Shown in pieces: positions 15,639-31,232 of a stretch of DNA of 64,000 bases. The stretch is taken from positions 124,001-188,000 of the forward strand of contig NKIN01000004.1 in the NCBI GenBank assembly GCA_002255905.1. Direction: 5' to 3'. Every line of letters begins with the position of its first letter. The first letter of the stretch is position 1. Below the pieces are notes generated by a model. That model made no database searches, had not been told where the DNA came from, and was given only the letters and a program-made list of their open reading frames with translations. Source of the DNA: Burkholderiales bacterium PBB1. GTDB lineage: Bacteria; Pseudomonadota; Gammaproteobacteria; Burkholderiales; Burkholderiaceae_C. A program made the position numbers and the translations under genes.

Positions 15639-15746
15639 GCACGGGCTTGTCGGGGCGCCGTGGACCGTGGGGTCGATGGCTGAGACCACACCCGTGTGGA
15701 ACCCGCTGAACCTGATCGGGGTCATGCCCGCGTAGGAATCAAGTGC
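15639..15746 (+). ncRNA. TPP riboswitch (THI element) upstream of thiC
   Basis: Contains the conserved thi-box landmarks in order: GGGGCGCC (15652-15659), GGCTGAGAC (15678 on), ACCCGCTGAACCTGATC (15701 on) and GGTCATGCCCGCGTAGGAA (15719 on). Short complementary ends (CTTG near 15646, CAAG near 15740) can close P1. It binds thiamine diphosphate and lowers thiC expression when the cofactor is plentiful. A TACACT box at 15633-15638 is a possible -10, which would start the RNA at about 15645, right at P1. The thiC start is 77 bases further on. Confidence 0.93.
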
Positions 15747-15771
15747 AGCGGCCATCGAGGCGGGGTTTTGA

Positions 15772-17733
<1,962 letters not shown>

Positions 17734-17750: not shown

Positions 17751-18044
17751 TCAGGCCGCGATCTGTGCGGCCTGTGCGGCCGTGGCGGCGTCCAGGCACT
17801 TGTTGCACTTGCCGAGGCCGCGCAACCGCGGATCGGGCCGGCCCTCGCCGGTCTTGAAGTTCGCCTGGCAACGGCGGCAGACGTACATCTTCGAACTCGA
17901 CATCATGGGCTTGATGCCGGGTTCCGACGCAGGACGTGCCGCCGAATACTCGGCCTGGGTCTGTCGCAGCTTGATGCTCTCAGCGCTGGCGGCTACCGTG
18001 ACGGCGGCGGGAGTGGCGGTGGTTTTGGTTCGTTGTGTGGCCAT
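17751..18044 (-). CDS. Small conserved CxxC protein, copy 1 (function unknown)
   Basis: 97 residues. Two CxxC pairs (CRRC near residue 56 and CNKC near 80) could bind one zinc or another metal. The N-terminal third is low-complexity and Thr/Ala-rich, the tail is Ala-rich. A second copy at 26691-26981 shares the QTQAEYSAARP, SSSKMYVCRRCQANFKTG and GLGKCN segments. I do not recognise a named family. The start is the ATG at 18044; a weak promoter is seen at 18112-18141. It lies between thiC (convergent) and a 195-base gap. Confidence 0.75.
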   Translation of the reverse strand: MATQRTKTTATPAAVTVAASAESIKLRQTQAEYSAARPASEPGIKPMMSSSKMYVCRRCQANFKTGEGRPDPRLRGLGKCNKCLDAATAAQAAQIAA

Positions 18045-18111
18045 GGCGCGGGAGTGGACCTCTCAGGTTGAGCCGGCATGTCGGGGCTGGAACATGCCAA
18101 CGAAAACCCCT

Positions 18112-18141
18112 ATTGTCCCTGCTGTGACCAATTCCCGCCAA
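18112..18141 (-). promoter_or_regulatory. Possible sigma70 promoter for the CxxC protein, copy 1
   Basis: Minus strand TTGGCG (18136-18141), 18-base spacer, GACAAT (18112-18117), about 68 bases upstream of the start codon. It lies in a locally AT-richer stretch. Confidence 0.3.
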
Positions 18142-19412: not shown

Positions 19413-20393
19413 TCAGGCTCGCCGCGAATCGATGGGCAGCGCCACGCCACAGGCCTCCAGCGCCTGGGCCACCGCGCCGCGGCTGACCGGCTTGTGCAAG
19501 AAGGCGTCGCAGCCGGCCAGTTCGGCACGCACCCGTTCCACGGGACGGGCCGAGCCGGTGACGACGATCAGTGCACACGCTGGATCGCTGGCGTGCGCAG
19601 GCGGCGCCTTGACGCGGCTGCACAGGTCGTGGGCCGCTGGTGCCGCCGAGCCATCGAAGACGATGCTCAGGAAGGCCACCGTGTAGCGCTTGGCGGCCAG
19701 CATGCGCACCGCCTGCATCGTGCTTTGCACCGGGTGCGTGCGAAAGCCGAATACTTCGAGCAAGGCGCACAGCTGCTCGCGGGCACCGTCGTCGCCGTCG
19801 AGCACCAGCACATCGGGTGGGGCGGCCGCCGGTGCAGGCTGCCCTTTGCTCGCCAGCAGAGTGCGCCGCACCTGCGCGCGCCGCAATGCTTTGGTGGCGG
19901 CTTTGGCGACCGGTGACGGCTCCTCGGGCGCGGCGTGGCGGTGTCTGGCCACTGGGGCAGGTGCCGCTGATGGTTGCCGTTCAGGCGCGATGCAGGGCAG
20001 CGGCGCTTGCGGGTCGGCCAGGATTGCGTCGTTCATCAGCGGCGGGTTCGGTGCCGACTCGTCGCGGGGGGGAGGCATCTCGAATTCGCGCAGATGCAGC
20101 GGCGGCAGCGGCGTGTCGGGTTCCACGTGCTTGGCAGTCTGGTGCGGCTCGGTGTGGCCGTCGAGGCCACCGGAGCGGGAATTGAACCAGCGCCGCAAGT
20201 CTGGCGCGTCCAGGTGCACCGAGGGCGTGGTGTCGGCGTCGAGCTCCATTTCTGCCAGGTTGACGAAGGCTTCGGAGTACTCCTCCACCGCGGGCGGAGC
20301 CGTGCCGTCCAGTGCCGCGCCGCAGGTGGTGCAGATGCGGGCATCCGGCAGGTTGAGCCGGACGCATGACGGGCACACGTTGAACGGAGGCAT
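19413..20393 (-). CDS. Zinc-ribbon protein with C-terminal degenerate receiver domain
   Basis: 326 residues from the ATG at 20393. An N-terminal zinc ribbon (Cys7, Cys10, Cys21, Cys24) is joined by a long Pro/Ala-rich linker (about 30-190) to a CheY-like domain (about 193-320). The receiver keeps the acidic pair (LVLDGDDG), the Thr of IVVTGSA and the Lys of FLHKPVS, but the usual phosphate-accepting Asp is replaced by Ser243 (VAFLSIVFDG), so it probably cannot be phosphorylated in the normal way. A further in-frame ATG at 20450 would add 19 residues before the zinc ribbon. No output domain is seen. Function unknown; a protein- or nucleic-acid-binding role is possible. Confidence 0.75.
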   Translation of the reverse strand: MPPFNVCPSCVRLNLPDARICTTCGAALDGTAPPAVEEYSEAFVNLAEMELDADTTPSVHLDAPDLRRWFNSRSGGLDGHTEPHQTAKHVEPDTPLPPLHLREFEMPPPRDESAPNPPLMNDAILADPQAPLPCIAPERQPSAAPAPVARHRHAAPEEPSPVAKAATKALRRAQVRRTLLASKGQPAPAAAPPDVLVLDGDDGAREQLCALLEVFGFRTHPVQSTMQAVRMLAAKRYTVAFLSIVFDGSAAPAAHDLCSRVKAPPAHASDPACALIVVTGSARPVERVRAELAGCDAFLHKPVSRGAVAQALEACGVALPIDSRRA

Positions 20394-26694: not shown

Positions 26695-26981
26695 GTCGAT
26701 GCCGGATCCAGCGAAGCGCTCGAGGCTGCCGAGGCGGCGGCAGCCGCCAGGGCCAGGCAAGGGTTGCATTTACCCAGACCTGCCATGCGCACATCGGGCC
26801 GACCGTCACCGGTCTTGAAGTTGGCCTGGCACCTGCGGCAGACGTACATCTTCGAGCTGGACATCATTGTCTTGGCGCCGGGCTCGGCGGGCGGCCTGGC
26901 CGCCGAGTACTCGGCCTGTGTTTGCCGCAGCTTCTGTGCGGACTCGTTTGATTTGTCGGTCTTGGTCTTGCGTGTGGTCAT
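26691..26981 (-). CDS. Small conserved CxxC protein, copy 2 (function unknown)
   Basis: 96 residues from the ATG at 26981. Paralogue of the protein at 17751-18044: the QTQAEYSAARP, SSSKMYVCRRCQANFKTG and GLGKCN blocks are almost identical, while the N-terminus (Lys/Thr-rich) and the Ala/Ser-rich tail differ. Two CxxC pairs suggest a metal site. A longer start at 27047 is possible, but the copy 1 alignment supports 26981. The stop overlaps a possible start of the SDR gene. No family name known to me. Confidence 0.75.
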   Translation of the reverse strand: MTTRKTKTDKSNESAQKLRQTQAEYSAARPPAEPGAKTMMSSSKMYVCRRCQANFKTGDGRPDVRMAGLGKCNPCLALAAAAASAASSASLDPAST

Positions 26982-27176
26982 GGCAAGCAGAGGAGTCATG
27001 TTGCCCGCGCCGGGCGACGAAATCGCCCGCGGAAATGAATTGTCCATGCAATCGCCATGCCGTGTCTGTCCCCGACAAGGGGGAAGTCAGATCGCTACCG
27101 ACTCACTAAGCAAGGTGCGGACAGGCGAGATGACCTTGCCTTGCGGCTCGACCCGCGCGGCAGCCGACCGACCCCG

Positions 27177-27551
27177 TCAGACCAGCAGTGCCCGCAGCGC
27201 AGCCGCGGCAAAAGGCTTGGGCAACGCGCCCGCCACATCGAGCCCGCTGGCGCGGGCCTGGGCCACGGCGCGGTCCAGCCGCTCGGCATCGGCACCGCTC
27301 GCGACGATGATGCGGGCGTTGCAGCCACGGGTCACCAACTCGGTGAGCACCTGCTCTCCGCTGGTCTCGGGCATGGTCAGGTCCAGCACGACATGGGTGG
27401 GATGCCAGTTGTCCACCGCGACATAGAACTCGTCGGCCGCGCGGGTGAGGCAGGTCGCGACCCCGGCCAGGCGGGCGATCGACTCGACGAGCAGGCCGAC
27501 CAGCGCGTCATCGTCGAGGATCAGCAGTCGCCGCTCGCCAGCCGGGCTCAT
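27177..27551 (-). CDS. Single-domain response regulator
   Basis: 124 residues, one CheY-like receiver and no output domain. Acidic pair in LLILDDDAL, phosphate acceptor Asp57 (HVVLDLTMP), switch residue Ser85 (VASGAD) and Lys112 (LPKPF). Its start overlaps the stop of the 1067-residue hybrid kinase (ATGA), so the two are translationally coupled and very likely form a phosphorelay or share a phosphate-sink role. Confidence 0.88.
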   Translation of the reverse strand: MSPAGERRLLILDDDALVGLLVESIARLAGVATCLTRAADEFYVAVDNWHPTHVVLDLTMPETSGEQVLTELVTRGCNARIIVASGADAERLDRAVAQARASGLDVAGALPKPFAAAALRALLV

Positions 27552-30500
27552 GTCGGAGGGCGCGTTTTCAGAACCGTGTGCACCTTGCGCGCCAGGTCGA
27601 TGCTGCGGTAGGGCTTGGGCAGCAAGTGCACGCCGCGGTCGAGTCGGCCGTGGTGCACGATGGCGTTCTCGGTGTACCCGGAGGTGTAGAGCACCTTCAG
27701 CGCGGGGTGCATCGACATCGCCTGCTCGGCGAGCTCTCGCCCGTTCAGGCCACCGGGCATCACCACATCGGTGAACAGCAGATCGAAGTCACTTCGCTCG
27801 CGCAGGATGGCCAGCGCCGCCATCCCGGTTTCGGCCACGGTGACGTCGTAGCCCAGGCCGACCAGCACGTCGCGGGCGTGCCGCAGCACCAGTGGGTCGT
27901 CCTCGACCACCAGCACGCGGGCCGTGCCGCGAAAGTCGTGCTCGGTGCGAACCACGGTGGGTGGCGCTTCGGGCGGGCCCTCTGCACGTGGCAGGTACAG
28001 CCGTGCCGTCGTGCCGTGGCCAGGTTCGGAATACAACTTGACGTGACCTCGGGACTGCTTGAGGAAGCCGTACACCATGCTCAACCCCAGACCGGTGCCC
28101 TTGCCCACGCCCTTGGTGGTAAAAAAGGGCTCGAACACACGCGCCAGGTGCTCGGGGCTCATGCCGCCTCCGGTGTCCGACACCGACAGCAGCACGTACT
28201 GGCCCGGTGCCACGTCGGGGTGGCGCTCGGCGTAGTGCTGATCGATCCAGGCGTTCGATGTTTCCAGCGTGATCTTGCCGCCCGACGCCATCGCATCTCG
28301 CGCGTTGATCACCAGGTTCAGCACCGCGGCTTCGAGCTGTGACGGATCGACCAGTGCGGGCCACAGGCCGGCACCGCGCACCAGCTCGAGTTCGATGTTG
28401 GCCGGCAGGGTGCGGCGCAGCAAGGCGTCCATGTTGGCCAGCAGTTGATGCGCATCCACCGATTGCGGCTGCAAGGCCTGCCGGCGTGCGAACGCCAGCA
28501 GGCGTTGCGTCAATTCGGCGCCGCGCTCCGCAGCCGTGCGGGTCATCTCGGCGAGCGGCAGCAGCAGCGGCTGATCGGCCAATTGCTCGGCCAGCAAGTC
28601 GGCGTTGCCCAGGATCACCGTCAGCAGGTTGTTGAAATCGTGGGCAACGCCACCCGTCAGCTGACCGATGGCTTCGAGCCGGCGCGCTTGCTGCAGCTGA
28701 GCTTCGAGCTCGAGCCGAGCGGTGACGTCGGTGCCGACGCCGAAGATCGCGCTGGGCTTTCCGTCGGCATCACGCACCAGCGTCCATCGACCTTCGACGG
28801 TGACCCAGCGTCCGTCCTTGCAACGCTGCCTGAAGGTGGCGGCATACCGGCCTGTGCTCAGCAGGATCTCGCGCGCGGCGTCATTGCCTGAGCCGTTCAC
28901 CAGGCTCAGCTCCGACAGGCGCCGACCGACCGTCTCCGCAGCGCTCCAACCGAACATGCGCTCTGCGCCGCGGCTCCAGTAGCTGATGCGGTCGTCCAGA
29001 TCGCGCACCACGATCGAATCCTCGGTCTCGTCGAGCAGCGTCGCCTGTTGCAGCAGGCGGGATTCGTTTTGCCGTTGCTCGGTCAGGTCGGTCATGCCGC
29101 CCACCATGCGCACCGCGCGGCCCTCGGTGTCCCGGATGACGAAGCCGCGGTCGGAGACGATCGCGTAGTCACCTCTGTGGCGCTGGAATCGGTACTCGGC
29201 GCTCCAGTGTTCACCGCCGCCATCGATCACGCCGTGGATGCTGTCGAGCACGCGGCGCAGGTCGTCGGGGTGAATGCGTCGGGCCCACGACTGGCTGTCG
29301 GGCTCCAGCGTGTCCAGGGCGTGCCCGAACAGCACCTGCATGCCCTCGCTCCACCACATCGCGTCGTCGTCGAGAGTCCAGTCCCAGACGGCGTCGGCGG
29401 TGGCTCGAGCGACGTTGCGAAAGCGCTCCTCGTTTTCTCGCAGCGTGCGTTCGACACATTTCTGCCGCGTCTGGTCGAGCAGCGCGCCTTGCACCCGCAC
29501 CACCCGCTGGCTGCTGTCGCGCACCGCTTCGCCGATCACACGGACATCCAGCGGACGCCCTTTGATCGTGACCAGCTGCAATTCGAGATCGAACGGTGTC
29601 CCGTGTTCGAAGGCGGCTTCGAGAGCGCGGCCGAGCGCCTCGCGCGATGGCGGTGGGTACCAGCTCAGGCTCATCTCGAGCTGAGGCGAGTGCTCTGGCG
29701 CGCAGTCGAGGATGGCGCGCAACTCATCGGACCACCGAACCACCGGCGCCGAGGTGCCGGTCGGGGCGTCGATCGCCCAGCCACCGAGGCCGGCCATGCG
29801 TCCTGCCAGCCCGATCAGCTGGTGGCTTTGCTGCAACCGCAGCTGTGCGAGCTTCTGGTCGTTGATGTCCGTCACCACCGCGACCAGCCGTGCCTCGCCG
29901 GGTATCGCTGCAGACTGCATCTGGGACACGGTGGTGCGGGCCCAGATGGCCTGGCCGTCGGGGCGCAGGTAGCGCTTGTCGATGCTGAAGCTGTCGATCT
30001 CGCCAGCCAGCAGACGTTGCATTTCCAGGCTGCACGGCGAGATGTCGTCGGGATGCGTGAAGGCGAGGACCTCCATACCACGCAGGGCCTCCTCGCTGCG
30101 CCCGACCAGCGCGCAGAACGCCGGGTTGGCGCTGAGGTAGCACCCATCGTCGTCGGCCGAGACAATCCCTGTGGCGCTGGATGCAAAGAGGCGCCGCCAG
30201 CTGGCTTCACTGTCGCGCAGTGCCACGAGGCTGCGCTCGCGTGCCTCCATCGCCTGCGTCACCAGTGCTCGTTGGCGACGGGATTCGATCTGCGCCATCA
30301 CCTGCAAGGCCAGCGTCTGCAGGGCCTCGACCTGCACGGCGCCGAGTTGTCGCGGAATCCGATCGAGCACGGCCAGTGCACCAAGCGCGTGACCCTCGGG
30401 CGTCACCAGCGGCATGCCCGCGTAGAAACGCAGGTGAGGCTCGCCACGGACCAGCGGGTTGTCGCAGAAACGCGCGTCGGCGTGCAGGTCTTCGATCACG

Positions 30501-30751
30501 CACAGCACCTGCTGCTCGATGGCATGCGCGCAGATCGACATTGCGCGATCGGTCTCGGTCCAGGCGATGCCGTGCACCGACTTGAACCATTGGCGGTCGC
30601 TGTCGACCAGGCTGATCAGCGCGATCGGTGTGGCGCAGAGGTGCGCCACCAGTTGGGTGAGGCGGTCGAAATCGGGCTCGGGCAGCGTATCGAGGACGCC
30701 ATAGGCGCGCAGCACGGCGATGCGTTCGGTTTCCTTCGCAGTCGGCAGCAT
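27548..30751 (-). CDS. Multi-PAS hybrid sensor histidine kinase/response regulator
   Basis: 1067 residues without transmembrane helices, so a cytoplasmic sensor. Order: N-terminal GAF (about 10-165), four PAS-like modules (about 175-305, 310-435, 437-565, 567-690), dimerisation/phosphoacceptor helix with GGVAHDFNNLL (about 697), ATPase domain (DTGGGMSPEH, then GKGTGLGLSMV; to about 920) and a C-terminal receiver (about 940-1060, phosphate acceptor in LLFTDVVMPGG, Lys in LLPKPY). The signal is unknown; GAF and PAS modules often bind small molecules, haem or flavin. Coupled to the single-domain receiver downstream. Confidence 0.92.
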   Translation of the reverse strand: MLPTAKETERIAVLRAYGVLDTLPEPDFDRLTQLVAHLCATPIALISLVDSDRQWFKSVHGIAWTETDRAMSICAHAIEQQVLCVIEDLHADARFCDNPLVRGEPHLRFYAGMPLVTPEGHALGALAVLDRIPRQLGAVQVEALQTLALQVMAQIESRRQRALVTQAMEARERSLVALRDSEASWRRLFASSATGIVSADDDGCYLSANPAFCALVGRSEEALRGMEVLAFTHPDDISPCSLEMQRLLAGEIDSFSIDKRYLRPDGQAIWARTTVSQMQSAAIPGEARLVAVVTDINDQKLAQLRLQQSHQLIGLAGRMAGLGGWAIDAPTGTSAPVVRWSDELRAILDCAPEHSPQLEMSLSWYPPPSREALGRALEAAFEHGTPFDLELQLVTIKGRPLDVRVIGEAVRDSSQRVVRVQGALLDQTRQKCVERTLRENEERFRNVARATADAVWDWTLDDDAMWWSEGMQVLFGHALDTLEPDSQSWARRIHPDDLRRVLDSIHGVIDGGGEHWSAEYRFQRHRGDYAIVSDRGFVIRDTEGRAVRMVGGMTDLTEQRQNESRLLQQATLLDETEDSIVVRDLDDRISYWSRGAERMFGWSAAETVGRRLSELSLVNGSGNDAAREILLSTGRYAATFRQRCKDGRWVTVEGRWTLVRDADGKPSAIFGVGTDVTARLELEAQLQQARRLEAIGQLTGGVAHDFNNLLTVILGNADLLAEQLADQPLLLPLAEMTRTAAERGAELTQRLLAFARRQALQPQSVDAHQLLANMDALLRRTLPANIELELVRGAGLWPALVDPSQLEAAVLNLVINARDAMASGGKITLETSNAWIDQHYAERHPDVAPGQYVLLSVSDTGGGMSPEHLARVFEPFFTTKGVGKGTGLGLSMVYGFLKQSRGHVKLYSEPGHGTTARLYLPRAEGPPEAPPTVVRTEHDFRGTARVLVVEDDPLVLRHARDVLVGLGYDVTVAETGMAALAILRERSDFDLLFTDVVMPGGLNGRELAEQAMSMHPALKVLYTSGYTENAIVHHGRLDRGVHLLPKPYRSIDLARKVHTVLKTRPPT

Positions 30752-30941
30752 CCAAGCCCTCCCTGGTCACCCGTCCCGTCCCAGCCCGATGCGTCGCAGT
30801 GTAGGAGAAGAAAAAAAGGCTGCTGCAACCCCCTCGATCGCAGGGATCCTCGGCCGACCGTGGGTCACGCAAGGCTTGCCAAGGGGGTGGGCCATACTGC
30901 GTCCGCGCCGGCGCCAGCCGCCCTTTGTTCAGGAACCACGC

Positions 30942-31232
30942 ATGATCGTTCGCATCGAAATCGACACCCCGCCTGGCGGTCAGTTCGACTACCGGGTCAC
31001 CGACGAAGGTCAGACGCTGTATGCCGACGCCGAACTGCCATCGCTGGCCGACGCGCTGGTGGCCGCCGTCGAAGGCCTGGCCCCCGAAGTGGTTGGCGCC
31101 GAGGTCTGGTTCCGCGGCGTGGTGTCGGGCACCTACCCGCTGCATGTCATCGCGGCCAATCACGAGCAGATCGCCACCCACGCAGCCAACACCACCGCAG
31201 CGATCTTCGAGGGCCTGGCGGCCGCCGACTGA
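30942..31232 (+). CDS. Conserved hypothetical protein
   Basis: 96 residues from the ATG at 30942 (MIVRIEIDTPPGGQFDYRV), preceded by an AGGA ribosome-binding site. It is acidic, alternates beta-like and helical stretches, and has no signal peptide, Cys motif or catalytic signature I recognise. It lies alone between the hybrid kinase (divergent) and a GGDEF gene (convergent). Confidence 0.7.
   Translation: MIVRIEIDTPPGGQFDYRVTDEGQTLYADAELPSLADALVAAVEGLAPEVVGAEVWFRGVVSGTYPLHVIAANHEQIATHAANTTAAIFEGLAAAD

Follow-up and report, generated by a model that had tools for sequence, protein, structure and literature searches.

The zinc-binding domain (ZBD) of ClpX (PF06689, zf-C4_ClpX) is a C4 finger of about 40 residues with two CxxC pairs, the second of which opens a helix. 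The same description applies to the predicted finger of the two small proteins analysed here, whose predicted structure gives a weak fold match to nearly the whole of that domain. The two fingers differ in that the pairs stand 18 residues apart in 13 ClpX loci of related genomes but 20 residues apart in the present family (92/92), and ClpX has an AAA+ part that is absent from this protein; none of the 17 members of our alignment A1 matched PF06689 at E ≤ 1. The C4 finger of DksA/TraR (PF01258) is likewise a small finger of treble-clef type placed after a helix, and TraR is a similarly small free-standing protein. In the rows compared, 17 residues lie between its pairs as against 20 here, and again none of the 17 members matched the model at E ≤ 1. 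FYVE and FYVE-like fingers (PF01363), which belong to eukaryotic membrane or Rab effectors, are linked to the present protein by weak fold matches and by a weak Pfam match of copy 1 (14.1 bits, E 0.051, below the gathering cut-off of 27.8 bits), but they hold two zinc sites whereas a single site is predicted here. The haloarchaeal one-domain zinc-finger micro-proteins HVO_2753, HVO_0758 and HVO_2901 are also small single-finger proteins and are conserved in one clade; they differ in being archaeal, under 70 aa and without a basic tail bearing LRQTQAEYxAARP. The HVO_2901 family (NF041915) was the nearest NCBIfam model, at 12.1 bits far below its curated cut-off of 80, and was weakly matched by 6 of 26 members (best E 0.05). 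Deletion mutants of small archaeal zinc-finger proteins can show phenotypes, according to one report (PMC6562870), so bacterial counterparts may be an overlooked regulatory layer.

Two paralogous genes in the window

The window, a stretch of 64,000 nucleotides from a Burkholderiales genome, carries two minus-strand open reading frames (ORFs), copy 1 and copy 2 (Table 1). A first-pass annotation had described them as paralogues sharing a core of about 60 residues, with an invariant block, CNxC pairs and diverging ends, and our comparison agreed on each point: the cores agree at 84% over 59 residues, SSSKMYVCRRCQANFKTG is the same in both, the second cysteine pair reads CNKC in copy 1 and CNPC in copy 2, and the two ends diverge. 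Their common core runs from KLRQTQAEYSAARP through SSSKMYVCRRCQANFKTG to GLGKCNxCL. When the whole genome (3.25 Mb, 99.6% complete) was searched with copy 1, copy 2 was recovered over residues 17–94 of the query at 71% identity (E 1.8e-33), and no convincing third copy was found, the next best place having an E value of 0.14. An alternative, longer ORF for copy 2 reaches 27047; we prefer the start at 26981 because it aligns with the first methionine common in the family and because the upstream ATG overlaps a -10-like element.

Table 1 Features of the two paralogous genes, with positions in the window and the analyses on which each assignment rests
Feature	Positions	Strand	Basis
Copy 1 coding sequence, 97 aa	17751..18044	-	ORF; genome search; core dN/dS
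Copy 2 coding sequence, 96 aa	26691..26981	-	ORF; genome search; core dN/dS
Copy 1 conserved core, residues 25-84	17793..17972	-	alignments A1 and A2; column counts over 93 distinct rows
Copy 2 conserved core, residues 17-76	26754..26933	-	alignments A1 and A2; 84% over 59 residues against copy 1
Copy 1 predicted metal site, C56-x2-C59-x20-C80-x2-C83	17796..17879	-	spacing fixed in 92/92 distinct relatives; finger pLDDT ~90
Copy 2 predicted metal site, C48-x2-C51-x20-C72-x2-C75	26757..26840	-	copy 2 sequence; spacing as in 92/92 distinct relatives
GGACAATA, -10-like element upstream of copy 1	18111..18118	-	motif search; no paired -35/-10 consensus nearby
GGACAATT, -10-like element upstream of copy 2	27038..27045	-	motif search; no paired -35/-10 consensus nearby

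The first-pass annotation had placed the copies 9 kb apart, a distance that is not strictly kept elsewhere. Among the seven genomes with both copies on one contig, the separation is about 7–9 kb in five (G000, G007, G008, G012 and G014), about 45 kb in G006 and about 84 kb in G010. In a tree built from 63 columns, the copy 1 and copy 2 sets lay on opposite sides of one branch (support 93/85), most forks were without resolution, and copies 1 and 2 were not sisters.

The sequence GACAAT is found 30–100 bases before the start in 80 of 93 distinct upstream regions, and 90 of the 93 are covered when GAAAAT and TAAAAT are included, compared with 0.5% (GACAAT) and 0.8% (any of the three variants) of random windows from the same loci. 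The median distance between element and ATG in these 90 regions is 57 bases. A promoter scan found no paired -35/-10 consensus at copy 1 or copy 2, so we describe a -10-like element without a recognisable -35. Within the window, the longer form GGACAATW is confined to two sites, one shortly upstream of each copy; this count, against 0.86 expected, is not significant by itself, as 21 of 100 shuffles reach 2. Genome-wide there are 11 occurrences, compared with 5 of a reversed control, and a coding-like start follows within 130 bases at 5 of the 11 sites, both copies included. On these counts GGACAATW looks like an ordinary, rare -10-like promoter core rather than the mark of a private regulon.

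Conservation, selection and distribution

A scan of the genome collection with copy 1 found 124 relatives, the best 80 of which were kept and combined with the loci of close relatives to give 110 copies and 93 distinct proteins; counts over 92 rows leave aside one truncated row. The core is almost fixed across the 93 distinct rows. All 92 distinct full-length relatives contain exactly four cysteines at the spacing C-x2-C-x20-C-x2-C and have a core net charge of +7 to +9, and the isoelectric point over the same rows has a median of 10.0 and a minimum of 9.5. A 26-row alignment contains 31 invariant columns, including L, R, Q, Q, E, Y, A, A, R and P of the N-terminal stretch.

Median dN/dS of the core was 0.012 for copy 1 and 0.087 for copy 2 (78 within-genus pairs each), 0.133 between copy 1 and copy 2, and 0.127 between other genera, and the entropy at codon positions 1, 2 and 3 was 0.30, 0.20 and 0.92 bits. 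Together these values indicate that conservation acts on the protein rather than on the DNA, and more tightly on copy 1 than on copy 2. High-GC DNA yields many spurious ORFs, and one rival reading is a GC-rich ORF without function that persists by chance or lies antisense to another feature; with dN/dS of 0.012 and 0.087 and far more entropy at third positions than at the other two, this codon-level pattern refutes it, the fixed start and upstream element also speak against it, and we give it practically no credence. Both window genes are real and under strong purifying selection with free third positions.

At least one copy was present in all 15 genomes of the window's genus that were searched, and two copies in 12; the three single-copy genomes are 74, 85 and 94% complete. 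Of nine genomes from elsewhere in the GTDB family that were searched alongside them, one has a single copy. In a wider sample of that family, 36 of 399 genomes carried the gene, spread over 11 of 141 genera. In three further genera it was present in 7 of 8, 10 of 10 and 64 of 80 genomes. Within the last of these, 43 of 52 good genomes carry the gene and 9 are without it, hence it is not needed everywhere. Certain genera have it as a near-core gene, and most of the remaining GTDB family lacks it. A sample of the order gave matches at E ≤ 0.01 in 7 of 399 genomes, only the window genome and a second genome from its family being convincing; the other five (E 0.0017–0.0087) were chance-like on translation, three of them with internal stops, and were rejected. 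In a sample of the class, the single match among 369 genomes was the window genome itself, with no convincing member outside the GTDB family. A tblastn search with copy 1 found no match in phage and plasmid collections, and the 44 stretches of viral contigs that matched the peptide pattern included none coding for a relative. In the samples searched, the family is clade-restricted, being found only in one branch of Burkholderiales.

Among the best 80 of the 124 relatives, the named records include Rubrivivax, Piscinibacter, Schlegelella, Leptothrix, Methylibium and Rhizobacter. Family labels, where given, are mostly Sphaerotilaceae, the exceptions being one metagenome-assembled genome labelled Rhodoferax (Comamonadaceae) and one record labelled Burkholderiaceae. 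Rubrivivax gelatinosus, Rubrivivax benzoatilyticus and Piscinibacter sakaiensis, cultured according to their record titles, have one copy each in the stretch analysed. Diverged extra copies were seen in one other genus (G674, G736 and G1164); three such members from the first two of these genomes (L151, L152 and L154) are without the MMSSSKM block, and one diverged extra member that is without one metal-site cysteine looks like a case of decay.

Predicted fold and database comparisons

Copy 1 consists of a basic tail rich in Ala, Thr, Pro and Ser, the KLRQTQAEYSAARP stretch, a linker, the C4 finger and an Ala-rich C-terminal helix, and copy 2 is laid out in the same way but with a shorter tail and a longer C-terminus. 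Throughout the family the N-terminus is basic, most commonly M-[AT]-T-R-R, and leads into the Ala/Thr/Pro/Ser-rich tail of 15–35 residues; the conserved LRQTQAEYxAARP comes next, joined by a linker to the finger, after which the protein ends in an Ala-rich segment. The AlphaFold2 model of copy 1 (26 rows) had a mean pLDDT of 69 and a pTM of 0.41, with pLDDT of about 90 over residues 51–90, and placed strands at 53–56, 62–64, 68–70 and 77–80 and a helix from 81; a model of the core alone (21 rows; mean pLDDT 77, pTM 0.49) contained the same elements. The helix over LRQTQAEY was modelled with low confidence (pLDDT about 53–62). A CxxC pair at the start of a helix is a hallmark of treble clefs, and because the second CxxC opens a helix, in our reading of the predicted secondary structure, the C4 finger looks treble-clef-like rather than like a plain zinc ribbon. 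The four cysteines probably fold around one zinc ion. An archaeal precedent advises caution here, as such motifs may hold no zinc: of 14 purified C(P)XCG proteins, 5 were reported to be free of zinc, and AlphaFold2 to be unable to tell (PMC11241148).

For this protein, every Pfam, NCBIfam and PHROG model fell well short of its threshold, and sequence searches of the PDB gave nothing convincing. Matches to PRDM9 (E 0.00095 and 0.00013) were rejected, as they rest on a repeated short 'YVCRxC..F' piece of which no single stretch passes. Foldseek returned nothing at E ≤ 0.001 from the PDB (best 0.45) or from viral models (best 0.029), where several of the matches were HNH-type fingers that we treated as sharing a common fold only. 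With VIA-align, the full model matched the FYVE-like finger of Slac2-a (2zet_C; Z 4.2, rmsd 3.4, 50 aligned), ClpX ZBD chains at Z 3.5–3.7 (2ds5_B, Z 3.7, rmsd 3.2, 42 of 44 residues; 2ds8_B, Z 3.6, rmsd 2.2, 40 of 41 residues) and the FYVE domain 1vfy (Z 3.0). The core model gave Z 3.5 for Slac2-a and 2.8–3.1 for the ClpX ZBD (2ds8_B, Z 3.1, rmsd 2.1, 39 of 41 residues). These middling Z values may reflect just a common arrangement; no DksA/TraR chain was among the VIA-align matches listed for either model. Profile–profile comparison by hhalign, run on shallow alignments, assigned probabilities of 2.6% to the ClpX ZBD and 0.9% to DksA-type fingers, though a control comparison of ClpX with DksA likewise reached just 10.3%.

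The proposal of the first-pass annotation that this is a real, unnamed family with a putative metal site was upheld by the purifying selection, by the spacing of the four cysteines (fixed in 92/92) and by the absence of any family-library match at threshold; membership of a known, characterised zinc-ribbon family, which it had said would count against the proposal, was searched for and not found, and its caution seems to us apt. Its tentative suggestion that the proteins bind nucleic acid or protein we regard as plausible. A literature search, with subscription journals mostly outside its coverage, found no paper on the family. It is an unnamed family of small single-finger proteins, in itself a known kind, under tight constraint in a narrow clade. 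It makes a clean orphan: a short gene under very strong constraint, seen in one Burkholderiales branch only, that has no match in the curated families searched.

Functional readings and gene neighbourhood

Searches of Pfam, NCBIfam and PHROG gave no catalytic-family match. The lack of a catalytic signature, the high charge, the near-invariant finger face and the separate conserved stretch together suggest a binding factor with one zinc-held finger. Our preferred reading, to which we assign a probability of roughly 0.4, is a clade-restricted, basic zinc-finger binding factor that would act most likely on nucleic acid or a nucleoprotein machine. The product would be a small, basic, cytosolic C4 zinc-finger protein, a binding factor rather than an enzyme, in which the four invariant cysteines would hold a single zinc ion. 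The finger (about residues 51–84 of copy 1) would show a strongly positive, nearly invariant face, KMYVCRRCQANFKTG.G.PD, most likely in contact with nucleic acid or with a nucleoprotein machine, for example the ribosome or RNA polymerase, and the LRQTQAEYxAARP stretch, tethered by flexible linkers, would dock on a conserved partner. Copy 1 is the more constrained form, whereas copy 2 has diverged and is preceded by a promoter-like element of its own.

The best structural matches, all weak (Z ≤ 4.2), include protein-binding domains (ClpX ZBD, FYVE-like and RING-like), which counts against the nucleic acid reading, and many proteins with acidic protein partners are basic too. The finger might accordingly be a protein–protein adaptor that, like the ClpX ZBD or other treble-clef adaptors, recognises a substrate, protease or regulator; 2ds5_B and 2ds8_B are the best-covered bacterial fold matches, and the short conserved stretch outside the finger fits a docking peptide. 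We consider this a tentative possibility, given that the Z values lie within the range of a merely common arrangement, that the profile–profile probability is 2.6% and that the cysteine pairs are spaced by 20 residues rather than the 18 of the ClpX rows. We rank nucleic acid or nucleoprotein first, ahead of an adaptor resembling the ClpX ZBD, but with modest confidence, since nothing beyond charge and conservation decides between the two. Four invariant cysteines in a small basic protein from a stand-alone gene would also suit a zinc buffer or a zinc/redox sensor, whose cysteines bind or release metal or form disulfides under stress; but the whole 60-residue core is near-invariant well beyond the cysteines, which a mere metal buffer does not need, making this role improbable. 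Many members read CIKCH or CIRCH and so contain the CxxCH of c-type haem or electron-transfer proteins: 44 of the 93 distinct rows have H directly behind the first CxxC, and there are single weak Pfam matches to cytochrome models (best E 0.037). In 49 of the 93 rows, both window copies included, the residue is Q, so CxxCH is not in every member; a second CxxC pair is invariant, no hydrophobic signal segment was visible by eye in the polar, basic N-terminus, and we regard haem binding as very improbable.

A more specific and unlikely reading would be that the protein serves a universal machine (RNA polymerase, the ribosome or an RNA-turnover complex) as an accessory factor peculiar to its clade. 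One Sphaerotilaceae branch would have gained it at the root and then fixed it under nearly the constraint that acts on core components. In that case the branch would carry out transcription or translation with one small zinc-finger part more than other Burkholderiales.

The convergent gene thiC ends 17 bases from copy 1, which therefore has no downstream partner; thiC stands beside copy 1 in 6 of 13 loci of the genus. Copy 2 is followed after about 50 bases by an SDR gene in the same orientation. This order is preserved in 13 of 13 genus loci (L002 and L023–L034), and the two genes could be co-transcribed. The first-pass annotation had suggested examining taxonomic spread and gene neighbourhoods, and both were followed up, the spread being the 11 of 141 genera given above. 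For the neighbourhoods, ORFs of at least 110 aa that lay within 5 kb and passed a composition filter were clustered across 80 loci; no cluster occurred in more than 19 of the 80, and no functional theme emerged. Neighbours that differ between genera are as expected for a stand-alone factor.

Several other features were seen nearby. A TPP riboswitch at 15641-15755 on the plus strand (73 bits against a gathering score of 54.3) lies upstream of thiC (15823-17733). Between the two copies, the minus-strand gene at 19413-20300 encodes, by eye, an N-terminal CPSC...CTTC pair and a C-terminal receiver-like domain that scores below its Pfam cut-off (26.5 against 30.2 bits), a putative zinc-ribbon/receiver fusion. 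Upstream of copy 2, on the minus strand at 27177-30751, the gene of a receiver-domain protein (27177-27551) shares 4 bases with the end of an ORF of 1067 aa, which by eye looks like a multi-PAS hybrid sensor kinase; the receiver or the kinase also adjoins copy 2 in some relatives. Beyond this pair, a 142-aa ORF on the plus strand (30804-31232) has no Pfam match and has a relative in one genus locus, L025, at 87% over 108 residues.
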